A stretch of DNA of 19,891 bases from Chloroflexota bacterium (GTDB lineage: Bacteria > Chloroflexota > Dehalococcoidia > Dehalococcoidales > JAHJRU01): contig JAHJRU010000207.1 of NCBI GenBank assembly GCA_018830745.1, positions 1-19,891 of the forward strand, written 5' to 3'. A program made the translations under genes and the position numbers. The notes under the pieces were generated by a model. That model saw only the letters and a program-made list of their open reading frames with translations, was not told the origin of the DNA and did not search any database. Below are positions 1,356 through 11,925 of this stretch, piece after piece (the stretch's first letter is position 1; every line of letters starts with the position of its first letter).

Positions 1356-2594
1356 ATGCCTAAGATTTATTTAATCGATGTCACCAATCGTGATGGTGTA
1401 CAGACAGCCAAGCTTGGCTTGTCCAAGCTGGAAAAGACCATGATTAATATGTATCTCAATGAGATGGGGGTCTTTCAGTCCGAGTTTGGTTTTCCCACTA
1501 CCCGCCATGAGTCCCGTTACCTGCAGGCGAATCTGGAACTGGCGGAGATGGGAGTTTTCCAGCCAATACATCTGGGGGGGTGGATAAGGGCTGTTATTGA
1601 TGACGTTAAAACGGCTTTTGTGCTGGTGCCGGGCCTGAAGCATCTCAACCTGTCTATTTCAACATCAGAGCAGATGATTAGTGGCAAGTTTAGAGGGAGG
1701 AAGAAGGGGCAGGACATCATCGATGATATGGCGGCGGCGGTAGATGCGGCGCGTAGTATGGGAGTGGAGAGCCTTGGAGTTAATGCCGAGGATGCTTCCA
1801 GGACGGACCTGAAATTTCTGATTAAATTTGCTCTGGCGGCTAAGGAGCATGGGGCAGACCGACTAAGGTACTGCGATACCCTGGGCTACGATAATCCGTT
1901 TACCATTTATGAGGCTACCAGGAAACTGGCTAAAAAAACCGGCATACCGATAGAGGTGCATTGCCACGGCGACCTGGGGATGGCGGTAGCCAATTCCCTG
2001 GCTGGAGCCAAGGGGGCGGTAGATGGCGGACAGGACGCCTATATCAATACCACCATTAACGGGATTGGGGAAAGGGCCGGGAACGCCGACCTCTTGGCAG
2101 TCGTCCTGGCGCTGACCAAGTCCAAGGGTTTCGCCGACAAATACGAGCTGGGGAATCCTATTGATTTATCTGTAGCCTGGAAGATAGCCAAGTTTGCCAG
2201 CTATGCCTTTGGGGTGCCCATTCCGCTTAATCAGCCCGGGGTGGGCGCCAATGCCTTTGCTCACGCCTCCGGCATTCACGCCGACGGTGTCTTGAAAGAC
2301 CCGGAGAACTATGAGCTATACAGCTATGAAGAGTTGGGGCGCGGCGAACCGGTTTATGTAGAAACCGGGAGGGAGATTATTGCCGGGCAGTATAGCGGGA
2401 TATCTGGGTTCAGCCACGTGATGGGCGAATTGGAGGTGTCCTTTGCTGATGAAGAGGAAGCCAGGGAGATTCTGGAACTGGTCAGATATGCTAACGTTGC
2501 CTCGCATAGGCCCCTGGTGGAGGAAGAATTACTCTTCATTGCCAAATACCCCAAAATTGTTAGGAAACTGTTAACCATGACTCCGCTGGAATAG
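1356..2594 (+). CDS. Re-type citrate synthase / homocitrate synthase-like (HMGL-family) enzyme
   Basis: This 412-residue protein has a DRE-TIM barrel: TNRDGVQT at 10-17 holds the catalytic Arg-Asp pair, VHCHGDLGMAVANSLAGA (201 on) supplies the metal-binding HxH, NGIGERAGNAD follows at 235-245, and ASGIHADGVLKDPE at 304-317 is the C-terminal signature of isopropylmalate/homocitrate synthases. These enzymes condense acetyl-CoA with a 2-oxo acid. In Dehalococcoides and some clostridia a member of this family is the (Re)-citrate synthase that replaces the normal enzyme. The NRDGVQT start and absence of any leu or nif genes here favour that role, but homocitrate or another alkylmalate product cannot be excluded. 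A GGGAG sequence about 11 nt before the ATG may be the ribosome binding site. Confidence 0.75.
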   Translation: MPKIYLIDVTNRDGVQTAKLGLSKLEKTMINMYLNEMGVFQSEFGFPTTRHESRYLQANLELAEMGVFQPIHLGGWIRAVIDDVKTAFVLVPGLKHLNLSISTSEQMISGKFRGRKKGQDIIDDMAAAVDAARSMGVESLGVNAEDASRTDLKFLIKFALAAKEHGADRLRYCDTLGYDNPFTIYEATRKLAKKTGIPIEVHCHGDLGMAVANSLAGAKGAVDGGQDAYINTTINGIGERAGNADLLAVVLALTKSKGFADKYELGNPIDLSVAWKIAKFASYAFGVPIPLNQPGVGANAFAHASGIHADGVLKDPENYELYSYEELGRGEPVYVETGREIIAGQYSGISGFSHVMGELEVSFADEEEAREILELVRYANVASHRPLVEEELLFIAKYPKIVRKLLTMTPLE

Positions 2595-4623: not shown

Positions 4624-5091
4624 TCAGTCTGTATTCTCCGCCTGTTCCAGGCTTCGCAACCAGCCGACTTCATCTTTCTTCACATCCAGAATTAAAAAGG
4701 TCTCGCTTCTTCTTATACCCGGTATCTTGGCCAGATAATCCTTCACAAACCACGTGAGCTCGCCCGATGAGCGGAACGACGTGCCGATGAAAATATCGTG
4801 GTTGCCGGTGCAGAGAGATACGTAGCGCACGTTGGGACAAATAGCCAGGGATTCGGATACTTCATCAATGCTGCCCAAATCTACTTCCAGGGCAAGGATA
4901 GCCATAATATTATAACCAAGCTTGGCCGGGTTTACTATGGCGCTGAAGGTGATGACACCGTCATCTTCCAGGCGTTGAATGCGGCGCCGAATAGTAGTCT
5001 CGCTGACATTCAGTTTACGCGCCAATTCGGCACTGTTCTGTCTGGAGTCCTGGGTTAATTCAGCCATAATGCGATGATCTAATTCGTCCAT
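4624..5091 (-). CDS. Lrp/AsnC-family transcriptional regulator
   Basis: The 155-residue protein has an N-terminal winged helix-turn-helix (about residues 5-50, with DSRQNSAELARKLNVSETTI and RRRIQRLEDDGVI) and a C-terminal RAM ligand-binding domain (about 60-145). Proteins of this family form dimers or octamers that sense amino acids. It is transcribed away from the acyl-CoA mutase operon, so regulation of that operon by an amino acid such as valine is a natural hypothesis. A GTG at 5100 is in frame, but the predicted -10 box (5102-5107) is immediately next to it; the ATG at 5091 is the more likely start on a nearly leaderless message, with no Shine-Dalgarno sequence. It converges with the sirtuin gene, with 68 nt between them and no clear terminator. 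Confidence 0.92.
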   Translation of the reverse strand: MDELDHRIMAELTQDSRQNSAELARKLNVSETTIRRRIQRLEDDGVITFSAIVNPAKLGYNIMAILALEVDLGSIDEVSESLAICPNVRYVSLCTGNHDIFIGTSFRSSGELTWFVKDYLAKIPGIRRSETFLILDVKKDEVGWLRSLEQAENTD

Positions 5092-5101
5092 GGCAGACAC
5101 C

Positions 5102-5130
5102 AGTATGGCACCAGGCGCTTAAAGTGTCAA
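5102..5130 (-). promoter_or_regulatory. Predicted promoter of the Lrp-family gene (leaderless)
   Basis: On the minus strand a perfect TTGACA (5125-5130) is followed after 17 nt by CATACT (5102-5107). The -10 box ends 10 nt before the ATG at 5091, so transcription should begin within a few bases of the start codon. Any Lrp autoregulation would need to act here, but I see no clear operator overlapping it. Confidence 0.6.
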
Positions 5131-5326
5131 ACTATCTGGCTGGCGAAGCGCAGCCCGGTCATTTCCACGGTAACAGGTCACGTCAAAAACCTTCAAATAC
5201 TCACCGACCGTTGCTTTAAAGCTTATTTTGGCACCCGATGGTTGGTTACCGGCATAAATAGGGCAGAAGTGTGTAAAACGAACGCTGTTGGCATACATCA
5301 CGCCTCTTTCCGCCGAGTTTCACCCC

Positions 5327-5355
5327 TTGACCATACCGGCAAATCAGTAAATAAT
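5327..5355 (+). promoter_or_regulatory. Predicted promoter of the acyl-CoA mutase operon
   Basis: TTGACC (5327-5332) and AATAAT (5350-5355) are 17 nt apart. The predicted start near 5362 gives a leader of about 49 nt ending in a strong ribosome binding site, GAGGAGGAGGA. The -10 box is imperfect, which would suit an activated or repressed promoter. Confidence 0.45.
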
Positions 5356-5410
5356 TTAATTAGAGTTCACCAAAGCCCAGGTCTAATGAAGCATATTGAG
5401 GAGGAGGACA

Positions 5411-7048
5411 GTGAAAGGAACCTATGAGCAGCCGGGGCAAGCCACTGGAGGCAAAGAGGAGTCAAAACGCTTCTCCACCGTTTCTGACTTAGAGATTAAA
5501 AGTCTCTATACCCCTGAGGATATCAAGGATTCGGATTATGAGGCTGACATCGGCCATCCCGGCAGTTACCCCTTTACCCGTGGTTGCCAGCCTGATATGT
5601 ACCGGGGAAGACTATGGACTTTTCGCATGTTCTCCGGCTTTGGCAGTGCTGAAGACACCAATAAAAGGTATCATAAACTTCTGGATGAAGGTGAAACCGG
5701 CTTGAGTGTCGCTTTCGATTTTCCCACACTGATGGGTTATGACAGTGATTCTCCCAGAGCCCATGCCGAGATTGGCAAATGCGGGGTGGCTATTGACACC
5801 CTGTTTGATTACGGGGTGTTGTTCAATAAAATTCCACTGGACAAGGTGACTACGTCTCAGACAATCAATCCGCCGGCCAGCATCACCTGGGCGATGCATC
5901 TGGCATTGGCCGATAAGCAGGGAGTACCCTGGGATAAAATTGGCGGTACTATCCAGAATGACATGCTTAAGGAGTTTGTGGCGCAGAAGACTTTCATGCT
6001 TCCCCTGGAGCCCTCGATTAAGATTGTCAGTGATACCATCGAGTTCGGCACGCAGTATGTTCCACGCTGGAACACGGTGAGCATCAGTGGCTATCATATA
6101 AGGGAGGCGGGTTCTACTGCGGTTCAGGAGCTAGCCTTTACTTTAGCCGACGGTATTGCCTATGTGCAGGACGTTATTGAACGCAAAAAGATGGACGTTG
6201 ATGCCTTTGCCCCCAGGCTTTCCTTCTTTTTCGACTCCCATATAGACTTCTTTGAGGAGATAGCCAAAGTGAGGGCGGCTCGCCGAATATGGGCCAGGGT
6301 AATGAAGGAGCGGTTTAAAGCCAGGGACCCCCGTTCCTGGTGGATGCGTTTTCATAGCCAGACGGCGGGTTGTTCCCTTACCGCCCAGCAGCCGTTGAAT
6401 AACATTGTCCGGGTGGCTGTTCAGGCTCTGGCAATGACTCTGGGGGGAACGCAGTCCTTACATACCGATTCCTTTGACGAGACCTTGGCTTTGCCCTCCG
6501 ACCAGGCGGTCACGGTTGCCCTGCGCACTCAGCAGATTATTGCCGATGAGACCGGCATAATTAACACCATCGACCCACTGGCCGGCTCTTATTTTGTGGA
6601 GGCTTTAACCAACGAGATGGAGGAGAAAGCCTTGGAGTATATTGAGAAAATAGATAAAATGGGAGGTATGCTGGCGGCTATTGAGCAGGGATTTCCTCAG
6701 ATGGAGATTTCCGAGGCAGCTTACAATTACCAGAAGCAGGTGGACCGGGGCGATAAAGTGCTGGTGGGGGTGAATAAATATATATCAGAAGAAGAAACCC
6801 CCATTGAGACGCTGAAGATAGATGAAAAGCTGGAAGAGAAACAGATTAAGTGTGTCCAGGAGGTTAGAAGGACGAGGGACAACCGCACGGTAGCTCGTAC
6901 CCTTAATGAACTGCGACAGGCATGTAAGGATGACAAGAACGTAATGCCCTACGTGATTGAGGCGGTCAGGGCTTATGCTACCGAGCAGGAAATCTGTGAT
7001 GTATATCGCGAAGTTTACGGGGAATACCGGGACCCTGGCTTCTATTAA
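5411..7048 (+). CDS. B12-dependent acyl-CoA mutase large subunit, isobutyryl-CoA mutase-like
   Basis: The 545-residue protein is the catalytic TIM-barrel subunit of the methylmalonyl-CoA mutase family without the B12 domain, which is the next gene. Conserved catalytic features are present: SISGYH with the essential histidine (H229), FAPRLSFFF, and FHSQTAG. Key specificity positions differ from true methylmalonyl-CoA mutase. Tyr89 of the Propionibacterium enzyme is Phe (RMFSGF, F74), and Arg207, which holds the substrate carboxylate, is Gln (FVAQKTF, Q192). Isobutyryl-CoA mutase has Phe and Gln at these places, while 2-hydroxyisobutyryl-CoA mutase has Ile and an extra Asp (here Ala, in SVAFD). 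It therefore probably rearranges an uncharged acyl group such as isobutyryl/butyryl-CoA. The GTG start follows a GAGGAGGAG ribosome binding site; the TTG at 5396 lies before it. Most pipelines would label this methylmalonyl-CoA mutase. Confidence 0.9.
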   Translation: MKGTYEQPGQATGGKEESKRFSTVSDLEIKSLYTPEDIKDSDYEADIGHPGSYPFTRGCQPDMYRGRLWTFRMFSGFGSAEDTNKRYHKLLDEGETGLSVAFDFPTLMGYDSDSPRAHAEIGKCGVAIDTLFDYGVLFNKIPLDKVTTSQTINPPASITWAMHLALADKQGVPWDKIGGTIQNDMLKEFVAQKTFMLPLEPSIKIVSDTIEFGTQYVPRWNTVSISGYHIREAGSTAVQELAFTLADGIAYVQDVIERKKMDVDAFAPRLSFFFDSHIDFFEEIAKVRAARRIWARVMKERFKARDPRSWWMRFHSQTAGCSLTAQQPLNNIVRVAVQALAMTLGGTQSLHTDSFDETLALPSDQAVTVALRTQQIIADETGIINTIDPLAGSYFVEALTNEMEEKALEYIEKIDKMGGMLAAIEQGFPQMEISEAAYNYQKQVDRGDKVLVGVNKYISEEETPIETLKIDEKLEEKQIKCVQEVRRTRDNRTVARTLNELRQACKDDKNVMPYVIEAVRAYATEQEICDVYREVYGEYRDPGFY

Positions 7049-7081
7049 ATCCGATAGTATATATTGTGTTGGTGAGGTAGA

Positions 7082-7507
7082 ATGGAACATCAAACTAAGT
7101 TGAGAGTACTGGTAGCCAAACCGGGACTGGATGGCCATGACCGGGGAGTTAAGATAATTGCCCGGGCATTTCGGGATACCGGCTACGAGGTAATCTACAC
7201 CGGTGTTCACCAAACTCCGGAGCAAATTGTCAGTGCCGCCATACAGGAGGACGTTGACCTGATTGGCCTGAGTTGCCTTTCCGGTGCCCACCTGTTTCTT
7301 TTCAACGAGGTTGTCAGACAGTTGATAGAGCAGGACGCTGGTGACATCATCGTTATAGGTGGTGGTATAATACCGGAAGAGGATATTACCAGGCTCAAAG
7401 GGGCGGGAATCAAGGAGATCTTCTTGCCGGGCACATCTCTTGATGAGATACTGAAATGGGTGGAAGAAAATGTAAAGCCCCTGAGTCAGCGTGGCGGGTC
7501 TAAGTGA
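7082..7507 (+). CDS. Acyl-CoA mutase small subunit, cobalamin-binding domain
   Basis: This 141-residue protein is a free-standing B12-binding Rossmann domain. GLDGHDRG (15-22) carries the DxHxxG motif whose histidine (H19) coordinates cobalt in base-off cobalamin, and the nucleotide-tail pocket is formed by LSCLSGAH and [22 protein letters not shown] is typical of the mutase subfamily. It follows the large subunit by 33 nt with a GAGGT ribosome binding site, and its last codons overlap the start of the next gene. Together with the large subunit it would form the holoenzyme; the two-gene layout resembles IcmA/IcmB and archaeal mutases, not the fused MutB or IcmF forms. Confidence 0.95.
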
Positions 7508-8451
7508 CTGTAGAGCTAGTTAATAGAATACTTGAAGGGGATGTTCGGACGGCGGCGCGGCTGATGAGGGGTATTGAGGATGGAGCCGCCGATGCCTTTG
7601 GGGAGATGGCGGACCTCTATCCCCATACCGGGAAAGCCTACATAGTGGGGATTACCGGCGCTCCCGGTGGCGGTAAGAGCACCCTGGTCGATACGCTGAT
7701 AACCACCTTCAGACAGAGGGATATGACGCTTGGCGTGGTGGCTATTGACCCCACCAGCCCTTTTACCGGGGGGGCGATACTGGGGGACAGGGTGAGGATG
7801 CAAAAGCACAGTACGGATAGCGGGGTATTTATCAGGAGCGTAGCTACGCGGGGGTGGCTGGGGGGATTGGCCCGGGCGGCGGTGAGCATTATTCACATTA
7901 TGGATGCAATGGGCAAAGATATTATCCTGGTGGAGACGGTGGGTATCGGGCAGCAGGAGGTAGACGTTACCCGGCTGGCGGACACCTCTATCTTTGTTCT
8001 GACGCCGGGGTCGGGAGACGCCATTCAGATGATGAAAGCCGGCATATTGGAAGTAGCCGATATATTTGTGGTTAATAAGGCTGACCTGGAGGGAGCTTCC
8101 CGTTCTAAAATGGAATTGCAGGCCATGCTGGGCATGAAAAGCGGCGCCTGTGAGGAGTGGGAGCCGTCCGTACTATTGACCGAGGCAGTGAATAATATTG
8201 GCATTGAAGAACTGGTGGACGAGATATTAAAGCACCAGGCGTTCCTTGTCTCTGGCGAGGGGATGGAAAAGCGGCGTAAGGAGAGAGCTAGACTGGAGCT
8301 AACCGAGGCTATTGAGAGCTCGCTAAAGGATTATATCGATTCGAACGTCGATAAGGCTTTCCTGGAAAAGCTGGTGGATGACCTGGTCCAGAGACGAACT
8401 AATCCTCAGGCGGCGGCTTCGCAGATAATCGGCAAATCGATTAAAAGGTAG
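7504..8451 (+). CDS. meaB: MeaB/ArgK-type G-protein chaperone of the acyl-CoA mutase
   Basis: The 315-residue P-loop GTPase belongs to the MeaB (ArgK/YgfD) family. The Walker A motif is GAPGGGKST (52-60), [11 protein letters not shown] (144-154) is the switch region, and NKAD (191-194) gives guanine specificity. Family members gate delivery of adenosylcobalamin to the mutase and eject damaged cofactor, protecting against radical inactivation. The GTG start overlaps the stop of the B12-binding subunit (GTGA), so translation is coupled and stoichiometry with the mutase is likely. In IcmF enzymes the same G domain is fused between mutase domains; here it is separate. Confidence 0.95.
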
Positions 8452-8462
8452 ATTATAATAGT

Positions 8463-9026
8463 ATGCCCCATAAAGAGCCATCATCAGCTTCATCGCCGAA
8501 ACCGTTTGGACCGGGACTGGTGGAGGTGTTTACCGGGGATGGCAAGGGTAAGACCACAGCGGCGCTCGGTATAGTACTGCGCGCCATCGCCCATAACCTG
8601 AAGGTTTATATCGTTTATTTTATGAAAGGCGGCTACCCCTACGGCGAGCAGCAGGTATTCTCCCGATTGCCTAATGTAGACTTTAGCGTCTTTGGGTACG
8701 AGTGGTTGACTGACCCCGAGAACATAAAGCCCGGGGAGATAGAAGAAGCCGGAAAAGCGCTGGCAAAGGCTCGTGAGGTCATATTCAGTGGTAAATATGA
8801 CGTGGTGATACTTGACGAGGTAAATGTAGCTGCAGCGTGGAAGCTTATAGATGTGGCTGAGGTGCTGGAATTGGTGAGGAACAAGCCCGGGGATATAGAG
8901 CTTATACTGACAGGGAGATATGCCGACTCCAGGGTGATTGATGCCGCTGATTTAGTTACGGAGATGAAGAAAATCAGGCATCCTTACGACAGTGGAATAC
9001 GGGCGCGTAAGGGAATAGACTGCTAG
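8463..9026 (+). CDS. cobO: Cob(I)alamin adenosyltransferase, CobO/CobA type
   Basis: The 187-residue ATPase has VEVFTGDGKGKTTAALG, whose P-loop GDGKGKTT (25-32) is the unusual inverted Walker A of the CobA/CobO/BtuR family, then VVILDEVNVA (Walker B) and the C-terminal VTEMKKIRHPYDSGIRARKGID. The enzyme transfers the 5'-deoxyadenosyl group of ATP to Co(I) of a corrinoid, making the adenosylcobalamin the mutase needs. It lies 11 nt after meaB in the same operon, so its job is probably cofactor supply and not de novo corrinoid synthesis; no other cob genes are in the window. The first 18 residues are a Ser/Pro-rich extension. There is no clear ribosome binding site before the ATG, and a GTG at 8519 would trim the extension. 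Confidence 0.93.
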   Translation: MPHKEPSSASSPKPFGPGLVEVFTGDGKGKTTAALGIVLRAIAHNLKVYIVYFMKGGYPYGEQQVFSRLPNVDFSVFGYEWLTDPENIKPGEIEEAGKALAKAREVIFSGKYDVVILDEVNVAAAWKLIDVAEVLELVRNKPGDIELILTGRYADSRVIDAADLVTEMKKIRHPYDSGIRARKGIDC

Positions 9027-9062
9027 TTGCGGTTGACATAATATTAACTTAAGGGGGCAAGG

Positions 9063-10208
9063 ATGGACTTCTCATTGACGGAAGAACAGAAAATGTTGAA
9101 GGCGATGGTGCGTGATTTCGCTACCAAGGAGATAGAACCGATTGCCGCCCAGATAGATGAGGAGGCCACTTTCCCTGCGGAGAGCATTAAAAAGATGGCG
9201 GAGCTGGGGCTGATGGGCGTGCCGTTTCCCGAGGAGTATGGAGGAAGTGGGGGTGGTCCGCTGGAATTCACCATCGTGGTGGAGGAGTTAGCCCGGGTCT
9301 GTGCTTCCACTGCCGGTATATACTTTGTCACCGCCGGGCTGGGGGGGAAGCCATTATACAAGGCGGGCAATGAGGAGCAGCGCCAGCGCTACGTGGTGCC
9401 GGTAGCCAGGGGGGAAAAAATATCCTGCTTTGGCTTGACCGAAGCCGGGGCAGGCAGTGACGCCACCGCCATTGCCACCAGCGCCGCTCGCCGGGATGGT
9501 GGTTATGTCCTTAACGGGAACAAGCTTTTTATCACCAACGGTAATGAGGCTGATGTGGCGGTTGTCTTTGCCACCCTGGATAAGTCACTGCGGCACAAGG
9601 GAATCTCCGCCTTTATAGTGGAGAAGGGGACTCCCGGTTTTTCCGTGGGCAAACTGGAGCATAAGATGGGAATACGGGCGTCATCCACCGCCGAGCTGGT
9701 CTTCGAGGACTGCTTTGTGCCGCAGGAAAACCTTTTAGGTGCGGAGGGTGAGGGTTTCAAGATTGCCATTGAGTCCATTGATTCCAGTCGCTTGAGTGTG
9801 GCCGCTCAGGCGATAGGTATTGCCCAGGGAGCCTTTGATAAGGCTCTGGCTTACGCCAAGGAGCGCCAGCAGTTTGGTCAACCCATTATTAACTTCCAGG
9901 CTATTCAGTGGATGCTGGCGGACATGGCGACCCAGATTGAAACCGCGCGGTTGCTGAACTACCGGGCTGCCTATCTGGAGCAAAATGGTCTCCCCTTTGT
10001 CAAGGAATCATGCATGGCCAAGCTTAACGCATCCGAAGCGGCCATGTTCGTTACCGATAGGGCAATCCAGATATACGGTGGTTACGGCTATATTAGAGAG
10101 TATCCCATAGAGCGCTACTTCCGTGACGCCCGAATCTGTGGTATCTATGAGGGCACCGATGAGATGCAGCGGATGACTATCGCCCGGCATCTCATGCAGG
10201 AAGTTTAG
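9063..10208 (+). CDS. Acyl-CoA dehydrogenase, short-chain (butyryl-CoA dehydrogenase-like)
   Basis: The 381-residue flavoenzyme shows the full acyl-CoA dehydrogenase layout: alpha-helical N-terminal domain (1-110), the beta domain with CFGLTEAGAGSDA and FITNGNEADV, and the C-terminal helical domain with RQQFGQPI, IQIYGGYGYIREYPIERYFRDAR and the catalytic glutamate in IYEGTDEMQR (E363). The glutamate position and the YGGYGY/IYEGT motifs are those of short-chain and butyryl-CoA dehydrogenases. It would oxidise an acyl-CoA to the 2-enoyl-CoA, passing electrons to ETF, which is not encoded here. The start is fixed by AAGGGGGCAAGG just upstream. Being last in the mutase operon, it could act on the mutase product. 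Confidence 0.93.
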   Translation: MDFSLTEEQKMLKAMVRDFATKEIEPIAAQIDEEATFPAESIKKMAELGLMGVPFPEEYGGSGGGPLEFTIVVEELARVCASTAGIYFVTAGLGGKPLYKAGNEEQRQRYVVPVARGEKISCFGLTEAGAGSDATAIATSAARRDGGYVLNGNKLFITNGNEADVAVVFATLDKSLRHKGISAFIVEKGTPGFSVGKLEHKMGIRASSTAELVFEDCFVPQENLLGAEGEGFKIAIESIDSSRLSVAAQAIGIAQGAFDKALAYAKERQQFGQPIINFQAIQWMLADMATQIETARLLNYRAAYLEQNGLPFVKESCMAKLNASEAAMFVTDRAIQIYGGYGYIREYPIERYFRDARICGIYEGTDEMQRMTIARHLMQEV

Positions 10209-10298
10209 ACCTTTACGGCGCAAAAAAGAATGGCTATTGCTCCGATTTAATTCAGAACAGTAGCAATTTCATTTGAAACCGTTGCCGGGACCGGGATG

Positions 10299-10712
10299 CT
10301 AGGCTACCAGATGGAAATTAGAGCTGGCTCCTTCGCCGGCGGAATACTTGTCCCCGGCGAAAACCAGATTATCCTTCATTATAACCGGCTTTCCGATTAT
10401 ATCCATGGTAACATTAGCCGGATCAACCCCGCCGAGATTACCCGTCAGCCACGGGCCTTCCTCGAGCTCAACCATCACTACGGTATAGGGAACCTCCGCC
10501 TCACGTCCTTCGGGGGCCACGTTGATGGTGGTAAAGGTTTGAATCTTGCCCTTGCCACTCAGTTCGATTATCTCCATATCCGTGCTGTTGCATTTTCCGC
10601 AGACCATCTTCGGCGGCACAATAATATTGCCGCATTCCAGGCACTTTAATCCCAAAAGCTTATCGTTTTTGAGAGCCTCATTATATTCCTGAAAAGTCAG
10701 TTTATATTCCAC
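10299..10712 (-). CDS. DUF35 zinc-ribbon/OB-fold protein, thiolase partner
   Basis: This 137-residue protein has an N-terminal zinc ribbon (C24, C27, C38, C41) and a C-terminal OB-fold segment (GKGKIQTFTTINVAPEG, PYTVVMVELEEGPWLTGNL). Proteins of this family (DUF35/OB_aCoA_assoc) pair with thiolases or thiolase-like aldolases, for instance in the archaeal acetoacetyl-CoA thiolase/HMG-CoA synthase complex, in BbsA/BbsB of anaerobic toluene degradation and in ChsH2/Ltp2 of steroid breakdown. Here the thiolase gene lies 34 nt upstream on the same strand. The GTG start has a near-perfect ribosome binding site, AGGAGGT. The gene converges with the acyl-CoA dehydrogenase. Confidence 0.92.
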   Translation of the reverse strand: MEYKLTFQEYNEALKNDKLLGLKCLECGNIIVPPKMVCGKCNSTDMEIIELSGKGKIQTFTTINVAPEGREAEVPYTVVMVELEEGPWLTGNLGGVDPANVTMDIIGKPVIMKDNLVFAGDKYSAGEGASSNFHLVA

Positions 10713-10746
10713 GCTTACCTCCTAAGTTAAGCCGTTTATTTTAAGT

Positions 10747-11925
10747 CTACCAGCCTCGCTCCAGAATCAGGTTGCAGAGGGTGGCGCCAACGCCGCCCAG
10801 GGTGTCAGTCATGCCGATTTTGGCTCCTTCCACCTGCCTTTCCGGTTCTACTTCCCCCCGGAGCTGTTTGGCTATTTCATATACCTGACCGGCACCGGTA
10901 GCCCCGATGGGATGGCCCTTAGCCTTGAGCCCACCGGAAGGGTTAATGGCTATCTTGCCGCCAATGTCAGCTTCGCCCTTGAGCCAGGCTTCACCAGCCG
11001 TGCCGTACTCAAAAAATCCAAGGCATTCGGCGGCAATGATAGCGGCGGTGCTGAAGCAATCGTGAAGCTCACAGACATCTATGTCCTCGGGTTTGCGCCC
11101 GGACATCTTATAGGACTGCTCGACGGCTAATTCCCGGGCTCGGATGCGGGGCAGGTAATCGTTCTGGTTTGATAACGGCCCATTTGACGCCTGACCAATG
11201 CCGGTAATGTACACCGGTTTACTGGTAAGCTTTTTCGCCACTTCTTCGGAGGCTAAAATCAGCGCTGCTCCTCCATCTGAGAAGGGACAGCAGTCGTGCA
11301 ATTGCAGAGGAGTGCAAACCATAAATGCTTTAAGCACATCTTCCATGCTCACCTCTTTCCGGAAATGAGCTTTGGCATTGGATTTGCCATGATGGTATGA
11401 CTGTACCGATGTATAAGCCATCTGTTCCTTGAGCTTGGGTAGGGGGATGCCGTGTTTGGCGGCATAGAGATGGGTGAGTAAGCCGAAGACACCGGGGAAA
11501 GTCAAACCCGAAGGGTATTCATACCGGCTATCACCAAACATGGCGAAGGTCCGGGTGGCTAGCGGTGTGCCCATGGTGGCGGCTCTCTCTACGCCGCCAG
11601 CCAGAACGATATCGTAGAAACCGGAGGCAACCCACATGAAGGCGTCTCTCACTGCTATACTGCCTGAAGCACAGGCACCCTCATACCGGTTGGCGGGAAT
11701 GTTGTGTAAGCCGAGGTTTTCCGCGGCGAAGGCCTGTATTGAGCCTTGCCCTTCGGAGAAATCCCCCAGCACGTTACCGAGAAACAGAGCCTGGACGTCC
11801 GTTTGTTTGAGTTGTGATTCGTTGAGAGCATCCATGGCTGCTTCGGAGAACAGCTCAACCCCGGTCTTGGTCTGAGCGCCGCTGAATTTAGTCTCACCGA
11901 CACCAACAACAGCTACTTTACGCAT
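10747..11925 (-). CDS. Thiolase-family acetyl-CoA acyltransferase (SCP2/DUF35-associated type)
   Basis: The 392-residue protein has the double thiolase fold. The nucleophilic cysteine is C85 in YEGACASGSIAV, the second site is H288 in CELHDCFS, and H338 sits in GGLKAKGHPIGATGAG. This HDCF version marks the SCP-x/archaeal thiolase branch that works with a DUF35 partner, which is the next gene. Because the active cysteine is kept, true thiolysis or Claisen condensation is likelier than the retro-aldol reaction of the Cys-less Ltp2 aldolases. Substrate is uncertain: acetoacetyl-CoA would close the butyryl-CoA route suggested by the neighbouring operon. The ribosome binding site AGGAGG (11933-11938) is strong. 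Confidence 0.9.
   Translation of the reverse strand: MRKVAVVGVGETKFSGAQTKTGVELFSEAAMDALNESQLKQTDVQALFLGNVLGDFSEGQGSIQAFAAENLGLHNIPANRYEGACASGSIAVRDAFMWVASGFYDIVLAGGVERAATMGTPLATRTFAMFGDSRYEYPSGLTFPGVFGLLTHLYAAKHGIPLPKLKEQMAYTSVQSYHHGKSNAKAHFRKEVSMEDVLKAFMVCTPLQLHDCCPFSDGGAALILASEEVAKKLTSKPVYITGIGQASNGPLSNQNDYLPRIRARELAVEQSYKMSGRKPEDIDVCELHDCFSTAAIIAAECLGFFEYGTAGEAWLKGEADIGGKIAINPSGGLKAKGHPIGATGAGQVYEIAKQLRGEVEPERQVEGAKIGMTDTLGGVGATLCNLILERGW

Follow-up and report, generated by a model that had tools for sequence, protein, structure and literature searches.

Does the gene at 5411-7048 of a contig from an uncultured Chloroflexota bacterium (Dehalococcoidia), which owes the name methylmalonyl-CoA mutase to its matches to TIGR00641 and PF01642, really act on methylmalonyl-CoA? 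We examined it in the window, by which we mean the whole analysed stretch of 19,891 nucleotides. The open reading frame encodes 545 amino acids from a GTG start, and GGAGGAGGAC at 5400-5409 adjoins this start immediately on the 5′ side. Judging from sequence and context, the gene very probably encodes the larger of the two subunits of an AdoCbl-dependent isobutyryl-CoA mutase and is a new member, in uncultured Dehalococcoidia, of an isobutyryl-CoA mutase group that has already been proposed. The features discussed are:

5411-7048, + strand: acyl-CoA mutase large subunit, proposed isobutyryl-CoA mutase (alignment and profile matches)
7082-7507, + strand: B12-binding small subunit (PF02310, TIGR00640)
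7504-8451, + strand: MeaB-type GTPase chaperone (TIGR00750 above cut-off, PF03308)
8463-9026, + strand: CobO/CobA-type corrinoid adenosyltransferase (NF004637 and TIGR00708 above cut-off; PF02572)
9063-10208, + strand: acyl-CoA dehydrogenase (nearest solved relatives are short-chain/butyryl-CoA dehydrogenases)
10299-10712, − strand: zinc-ribbon/OB-fold (ChsH2-type) protein, probable thiolase partner, loosely associated
10747-11925, − strand: thiolase, nearest to acetoacetyl-CoA thiolase 6esq, loosely associated and on the opposite strand

We aligned the mutase with MutB (1req), human methylmalonyl-CoA mutase (MCM, 2xij) and 2-hydroxyisobutyryl-CoA mutase (HCM, 4r3u), using HMMER against solved mutases and MAFFT. 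Residue 74 is Phe at the position of MutB Tyr89 (codon 5630-5632), residue 192 is Gln at the position of Arg207 (codon 5984-5986) and residue 101 is Ala at MutB position 116 (codon 5711-5713), where HCM has Asp. An earlier sequence-only reading had named these residues and had placed the Phe and Gln codons exactly, and the alignment places no Arg at position 207. The solved IcmF 4xc6 has Phe and Gln at chain positions 618 and 762, which align to MutB 89 and 207 and which we take to be Phe598 and Gln742 after removal of a 20-residue tag. The pair is presumably the mark of the isobutyryl-CoA mutase family, and the earlier attribution of Phe/Gln to that pattern agrees with the solved IcmF. At MutB position 119 the window mutase has Phe, where MutB has Leu, HCM has Met and the IcmF genes compared have Ser, so that its acyl pocket differs; we counted this against the isobutyryl-CoA reading. 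The AlphaFold model, based on a 32-row alignment, was poor (mean pLDDT 57.6).

The Phe/Gln pair is not a chance substitution, since it is kept by all 121 proteins of one sample (the query plus the 120 listed best of the 8000 homologues scored, among which is the window's own protein), by each of the 80 named genome loci and by all 22 loci that represent the clade in the Syntrophomonas UBA4911 order, although these samples are close kin by construction. The 80 named loci also invariably have Ala116 and His244. Among relatives of the window's genome, five of the six clade loci carry Phe/Gln and the sixth is incomplete, with Gln alone visible. Two further residues, Met73 at MutB Gln88 (codon 5627-5629) and Gln60 at MutB Tyr75 (codon 5588-5590), had been regarded as unusual even for isobutyryl-CoA mutases, but this did not hold. 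Met88 is found in 120 of the 121 proteins, in all 22 loci of the UBA4911 order and in 78 of the 80 named loci (the others have Leu and Gln once each); position 75 is Gln in all 121 proteins and in 73 of the named loci, with His in the other seven. Cupriavidus IcmF reads T-R-M-F at Phe598, and one of the two Chloroflexota IcmF genes compared also has Met before Phe, so Met88 is ordinary for isobutyryl-CoA mutases. Both residues occur among MCM-type Tyr/Arg rows as well (Gln75 in 11 and Met88 in 5 of 31), and we dropped them as marks of a special subgroup.

For phylogeny we computed a careful IQ-TREE tree of 61 rows, without Streptomyces IcmA and with 18 of 79 rows omitted, mostly long branches or far paralogues. 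The window mutase falls in a clade of 27 rows (support 98/99), every one of them Phe/Gln, which spans Dehalococcoidia, Desulfobacterota and Firmicutes syntrophs. Within it, an inner set of 23 rows (support 100/100) contains the Syntrophothermus lipocalidus mutase, and a quick tree of all 79 rows recovered the same 27-row clade with support 99. The 25 Tyr/Arg rows make up their own starred group, HCM and its relatives another, and IcmF lies far away. The backbone between IcmF, HCM, MCM and the window's clade is not resolved in the 61-row tree, and for this reason we do not claim that the Phe/Gln code is convergent. Xaut_5043, which we take to be pivalyl-CoA mutase, stands outside the clade but on a very long branch; a literature search by the name pivalyl-CoA mutase found no paper. 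Two plasmid mutase genes fetched for comparison carry Tyr/Arg.

A clade member with at least 73 % identity was found in 7 of the 61 genomes searched (the window's genome and 60 of its order), and five of these seven also have an MCM-type mutase, the window's being counted by similarity. In the UBA4911 order, 21 of 63 genomes have a clade member. We also noted several observations on the wider family. Phe/Gln occurs outside the clade in a haloarchaeal gene (L117:4911-6611) and in a Deinococcus plasmid gene (L170:4022-5638), both annotated as methylmalonyl-CoA mutase. Near-identical kin are filed under Bacteroidota (P0010, 88 % identity) and Methanoregulaceae (L036, 70 %, on a contig of 4,146 bases), probably through binning errors. 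Two loci (L078 and L079) have tandem mutases, one Tyr/Arg (55-56 % identical to the window protein) and one Phe/Gln (67-69 %). Other mutase paralogues of the relatives (L095-L098, L099, L104, L105, L109) keep Arg207, with Leu or Ile at 89 and Asn at the catalytic His244. A far mutase of 35-36 % identity (L004:8574-10442 on the − strand, and L132) seems to have Tyr at the Arg207 position and, in L004, Asp at His244, the alignment being uncertain at such distance; the L004 gene is adjoined by its own B12 subunit, MeaB and CobO.

The five genes from the mutase to the acyl-CoA dehydrogenase are co-directional, with gaps of 33, −4, 11 and 36 bases. The small subunit carries DGHDRG, which we take to be the DxHxxG motif of B12-binding subunits. 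The dehydrogenase is nearest to 5ol2 and to the short-chain enzymes 1jqi and 7y0a, with the short/branched-chain 2jif, ACAD8 1rx0 and isovaleryl 1ivh enzymes ranking behind; its best NCBIfam model is acryloyl-CoA reductase, below cut-off. Among the window proteins scanned, we identified none for the two middle beta-oxidation steps. Over 5000-10800, the promoter scan gave 7 sites (5.9 expected) and the terminator scan 0 (5.3 expected), and no tRNA was found in the window. Elsewhere in the window, 1356-2594 (+) encodes an HMGL-like protein of the isopropylmalate/homocitrate synthase type; in all 25 NCBIfam models that it matched, its score stays under the cut-off.

The gene order recurs in part around other clade mutases. 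Of the 80 named loci, 73 have room for a B12 subunit gene downstream, and it follows the mutase directly in 72 of these. For the 36 loci that extend 4.5 kb to either side of the mutase, same-strand neighbours within this distance included MeaB in 33, CobO in 24 and an acyl-CoA dehydrogenase in only 9, the last of which we counted against an isobutyryl-CoA mutase. Over 82 loci, whatever their room, the respective counts were 64, 43 and 21, with the B12 subunit in 78. We scanned one representative of each of ten other recurrent neighbour families. Some fit fatty-acid metabolism (enoyl-CoA hydratase at 12 of the 82 loci, thiolase at 10, 3-hydroxyacyl-CoA dehydrogenase at 8, a protein like 4-hydroxybutyryl-CoA dehydratase at 6), and we counted the first three in favour of an isobutyryl-CoA mutase. 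Others have no plain link to it, namely DUF2284 (15), the redox-active C_GCAxxG_C_C family (11) and an IF-2B-like family (11), which also count against the isobutyryl-CoA reading, as well as peptidase M24 (6) and a sigma-54 activator (6); one family (13 loci) had no Pfam match. The dehydratase-like representative, L056:6029-7498, is nearest to the 4-hydroxybutyryl-CoA dehydratase/vinylacetyl-CoA isomerase structures 1u8v and 6vjr, and at those six loci this neighbour may link the mutase with the metabolism of 4-hydroxybutyrate or GABA.

One mutase of the clade belongs to an organism that is described as an isobutyrate isomeriser. According to passages of PMC5017805, S. lipocalidus TGB-C1 isomerises isobutyrate to butyrate, its genes Slip_0757-0760 are assigned on genomic grounds to an isobutyryl-CoA mutase with adenosyltransferase and MeaB, the cluster is related to a group in sulfate-reducing bacteria, and S. 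wolfei Gottingen is called non-BCFA-metabolising. The mutase that we take as that of S. lipocalidus is the sole match to the query in its genome (782,463-784,055), and over the query's length it shows 100 % identity with a record bearing the name of this species; adenosyltransferase, B12 subunit and MeaB genes adjoin it. It shares 69 % identity with the window mutase and the same residues at 75, 88, 89 and 207. The two clusters hold the same four kinds of gene, but the adenosyltransferase is upstream in S. lipocalidus and downstream in the window, which adds the acyl-CoA dehydrogenase. Similar genes are proposed in parts of PMC6687939 for Syntrophomonas BUT1 and a similar cassette in parts of PMC8674449 for Syntrophomonadaceae bin23. 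The core idea that the clade mutase is an isobutyryl-CoA mutase is thus already in print for syntrophs. We came upon no assay of any clade member, and count this, together with the genomic basis of the published assignment, against the isobutyryl-CoA reading. Among the papers listed in our literature search, and in PMC4959651 searched by term, we came upon no report of such a mutase in Dehalococcoidia, though such a search is a weak guide.

The window's genome (1.53 Mb, 72 % complete) shows one further mutase, at the start edge of a contig:

Contig C124, L112:1-5057: methylmalonyl-CoA operon, beginning with the C-terminal part of the mutase (profile matches)

Only 213 residues of this mutase are visible, and its own residues 89 and 207 lie beyond the contig edge. 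It is 65-80 % identical to ten Tyr/Arg mutases of Dehalococcoidia, at most 57 % identical to the Phe/Gln rows shown and 54.5 % identical to the window protein. Downstream follow a B12 subunit, methylmalonyl-CoA epimerase (above the TIGR03081 cut-off), a carboxyltransferase (best model TIGR01117, below cut-off) and succinyl-CoA ligase beta and alpha subunits (above cut-off). From these similarities, the bacterium seems to possess a distinct methylmalonyl-CoA mutase encoded outside the window, and the window gene, because the second mutase sits in a methylmalonyl-CoA operon, looks like a specialised paralogue.

How do other substrates fare against this evidence? We consider it highly improbable that the annotation is right and the gene encodes a methylmalonyl-CoA mutase whose pocket has changed. 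The enzyme shares the fold family and His244 with 1req and 2xij and bears the database name, and of the eight clade genomes to which other loci led us, five have no TIGR00641 match besides the clade member, a count that we also entered in favour of the isobutyryl-CoA reading. However, Tyr89 and Arg207 are both replaced, the MCM equivalog NF006944 gives 623 bits against a cut-off of 876 (a full-length model whose cut-off a large subunit could hardly reach), and the window's own genome has the other mutase in its methylmalonyl-CoA operon. There is even less to be said for 2-hydroxyisobutyryl-CoA, for which we see hardly any chance. HcmA (4r3u) is the best solved-structure match, shares the two-subunit form and has Gln at 207; we did count it against the isobutyryl-CoA reading that the closest solved enzyme by sequence is HCM and not IcmF. 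But HCM has Ile at 89 and Asp at 116 where the window mutase has Phe and Ala, its Asp is replaced by Ala in every named clade locus, and its rows group separately in the tree.

That the enzyme serves a different uncharged acyl-CoA (isovaleryl-CoA, pivalyl-CoA or another branched C5 compound, for example), with isobutyryl-CoA at most a side substrate, is unlikely but deserves more weight than the two preceding alternatives. Passages of PMC10481361 state that IcmF also interconverts pivalyl-CoA and isovaleryl-CoA, so the substrate cannot be read from Phe/Gln alone; since position 119 is moreover aromatic in the window's clade, these C5 compounds are conceivable. Against this, the clade holds the mutase of the organism that passages of PMC5017805 describe as isomerising isobutyrate, and the neighbouring dehydrogenase is closer to short-chain than to isovaleryl-CoA enzymes. 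The fused form of the enzyme was rejected for the window. In IcmF a single chain combines the B12, GTPase and mutase parts, whereas the window has separate genes, whose proteins reach 316.6, 76.8 and 133.3 bits with the fused-IcmF model NF045497 (cut-off 1500). What we found in the window is the Phe/Gln pair, a separate B12 subunit as in the IcmA/IcmB form, and membership in a clade with an isobutyrate isomeriser. The residues, the S. lipocalidus clade, the gene block and the second mutase with its operon favour the earlier suggestion of an uncharged acyl-CoA substrate, most likely isobutyryl/butyryl-CoA, and uphold its warning that the name methylmalonyl-CoA mutase misleads.

The most likely function is therefore given here as AdoCbl-dependent isomerisation of isobutyryl-CoA and butyryl-CoA feeding beta-oxidation, and we infer its substrate pair, direction, rate and mechanism as far as sequence and family allow. 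The large subunit would work with the B12 small subunit and with the MeaB chaperone and adenosyltransferase encoded behind it, the latter two presumably loading AdoCbl as in the family. A 5′-deoxyadenosyl radical would, again by analogy with the family, start the 1,2-shift of the CoA-carbonyl group that interconverts isobutyryl-CoA and n-butyryl-CoA, with Phe and Gln in place of the Tyr and Arg that hold the free carboxylate of methylmalonyl-CoA. The short-chain acyl-CoA dehydrogenase of the next gene is predicted to oxidise butyryl-CoA to crotonyl-CoA, so the net direction is likely from isobutyrate into beta-oxidation; the reverse, from butyryl-CoA to isobutyryl-CoA, is possible.

The window gene leaves knowledge of the enzyme mechanism unchanged, but it bears on naming and on physiology. 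A database name would be corrected throughout a large anaerobe group, and the replacement of Tyr/Arg by Phe/Gln, together with the gene block, would offer a readable marker for isobutyrate isomerisation, a step in the anoxic breakdown of branched-chain amino acids. For Dehalococcoidia, isobutyrate is suggested as a candidate substrate. More tentatively, and with rather less confidence than we would need to favour it, the clade may be an isobutyryl-CoA mutase lineage separate from the fused IcmF and present in syntrophs, sulfate reducers and uncultured Dehalococcoidia, its Phe/Gln code being either convergent or ancestral. If this is true, Dehalococcoidia would be overlooked oxidisers of isobutyrate, and hence of valine carbon, in anoxic sediments.
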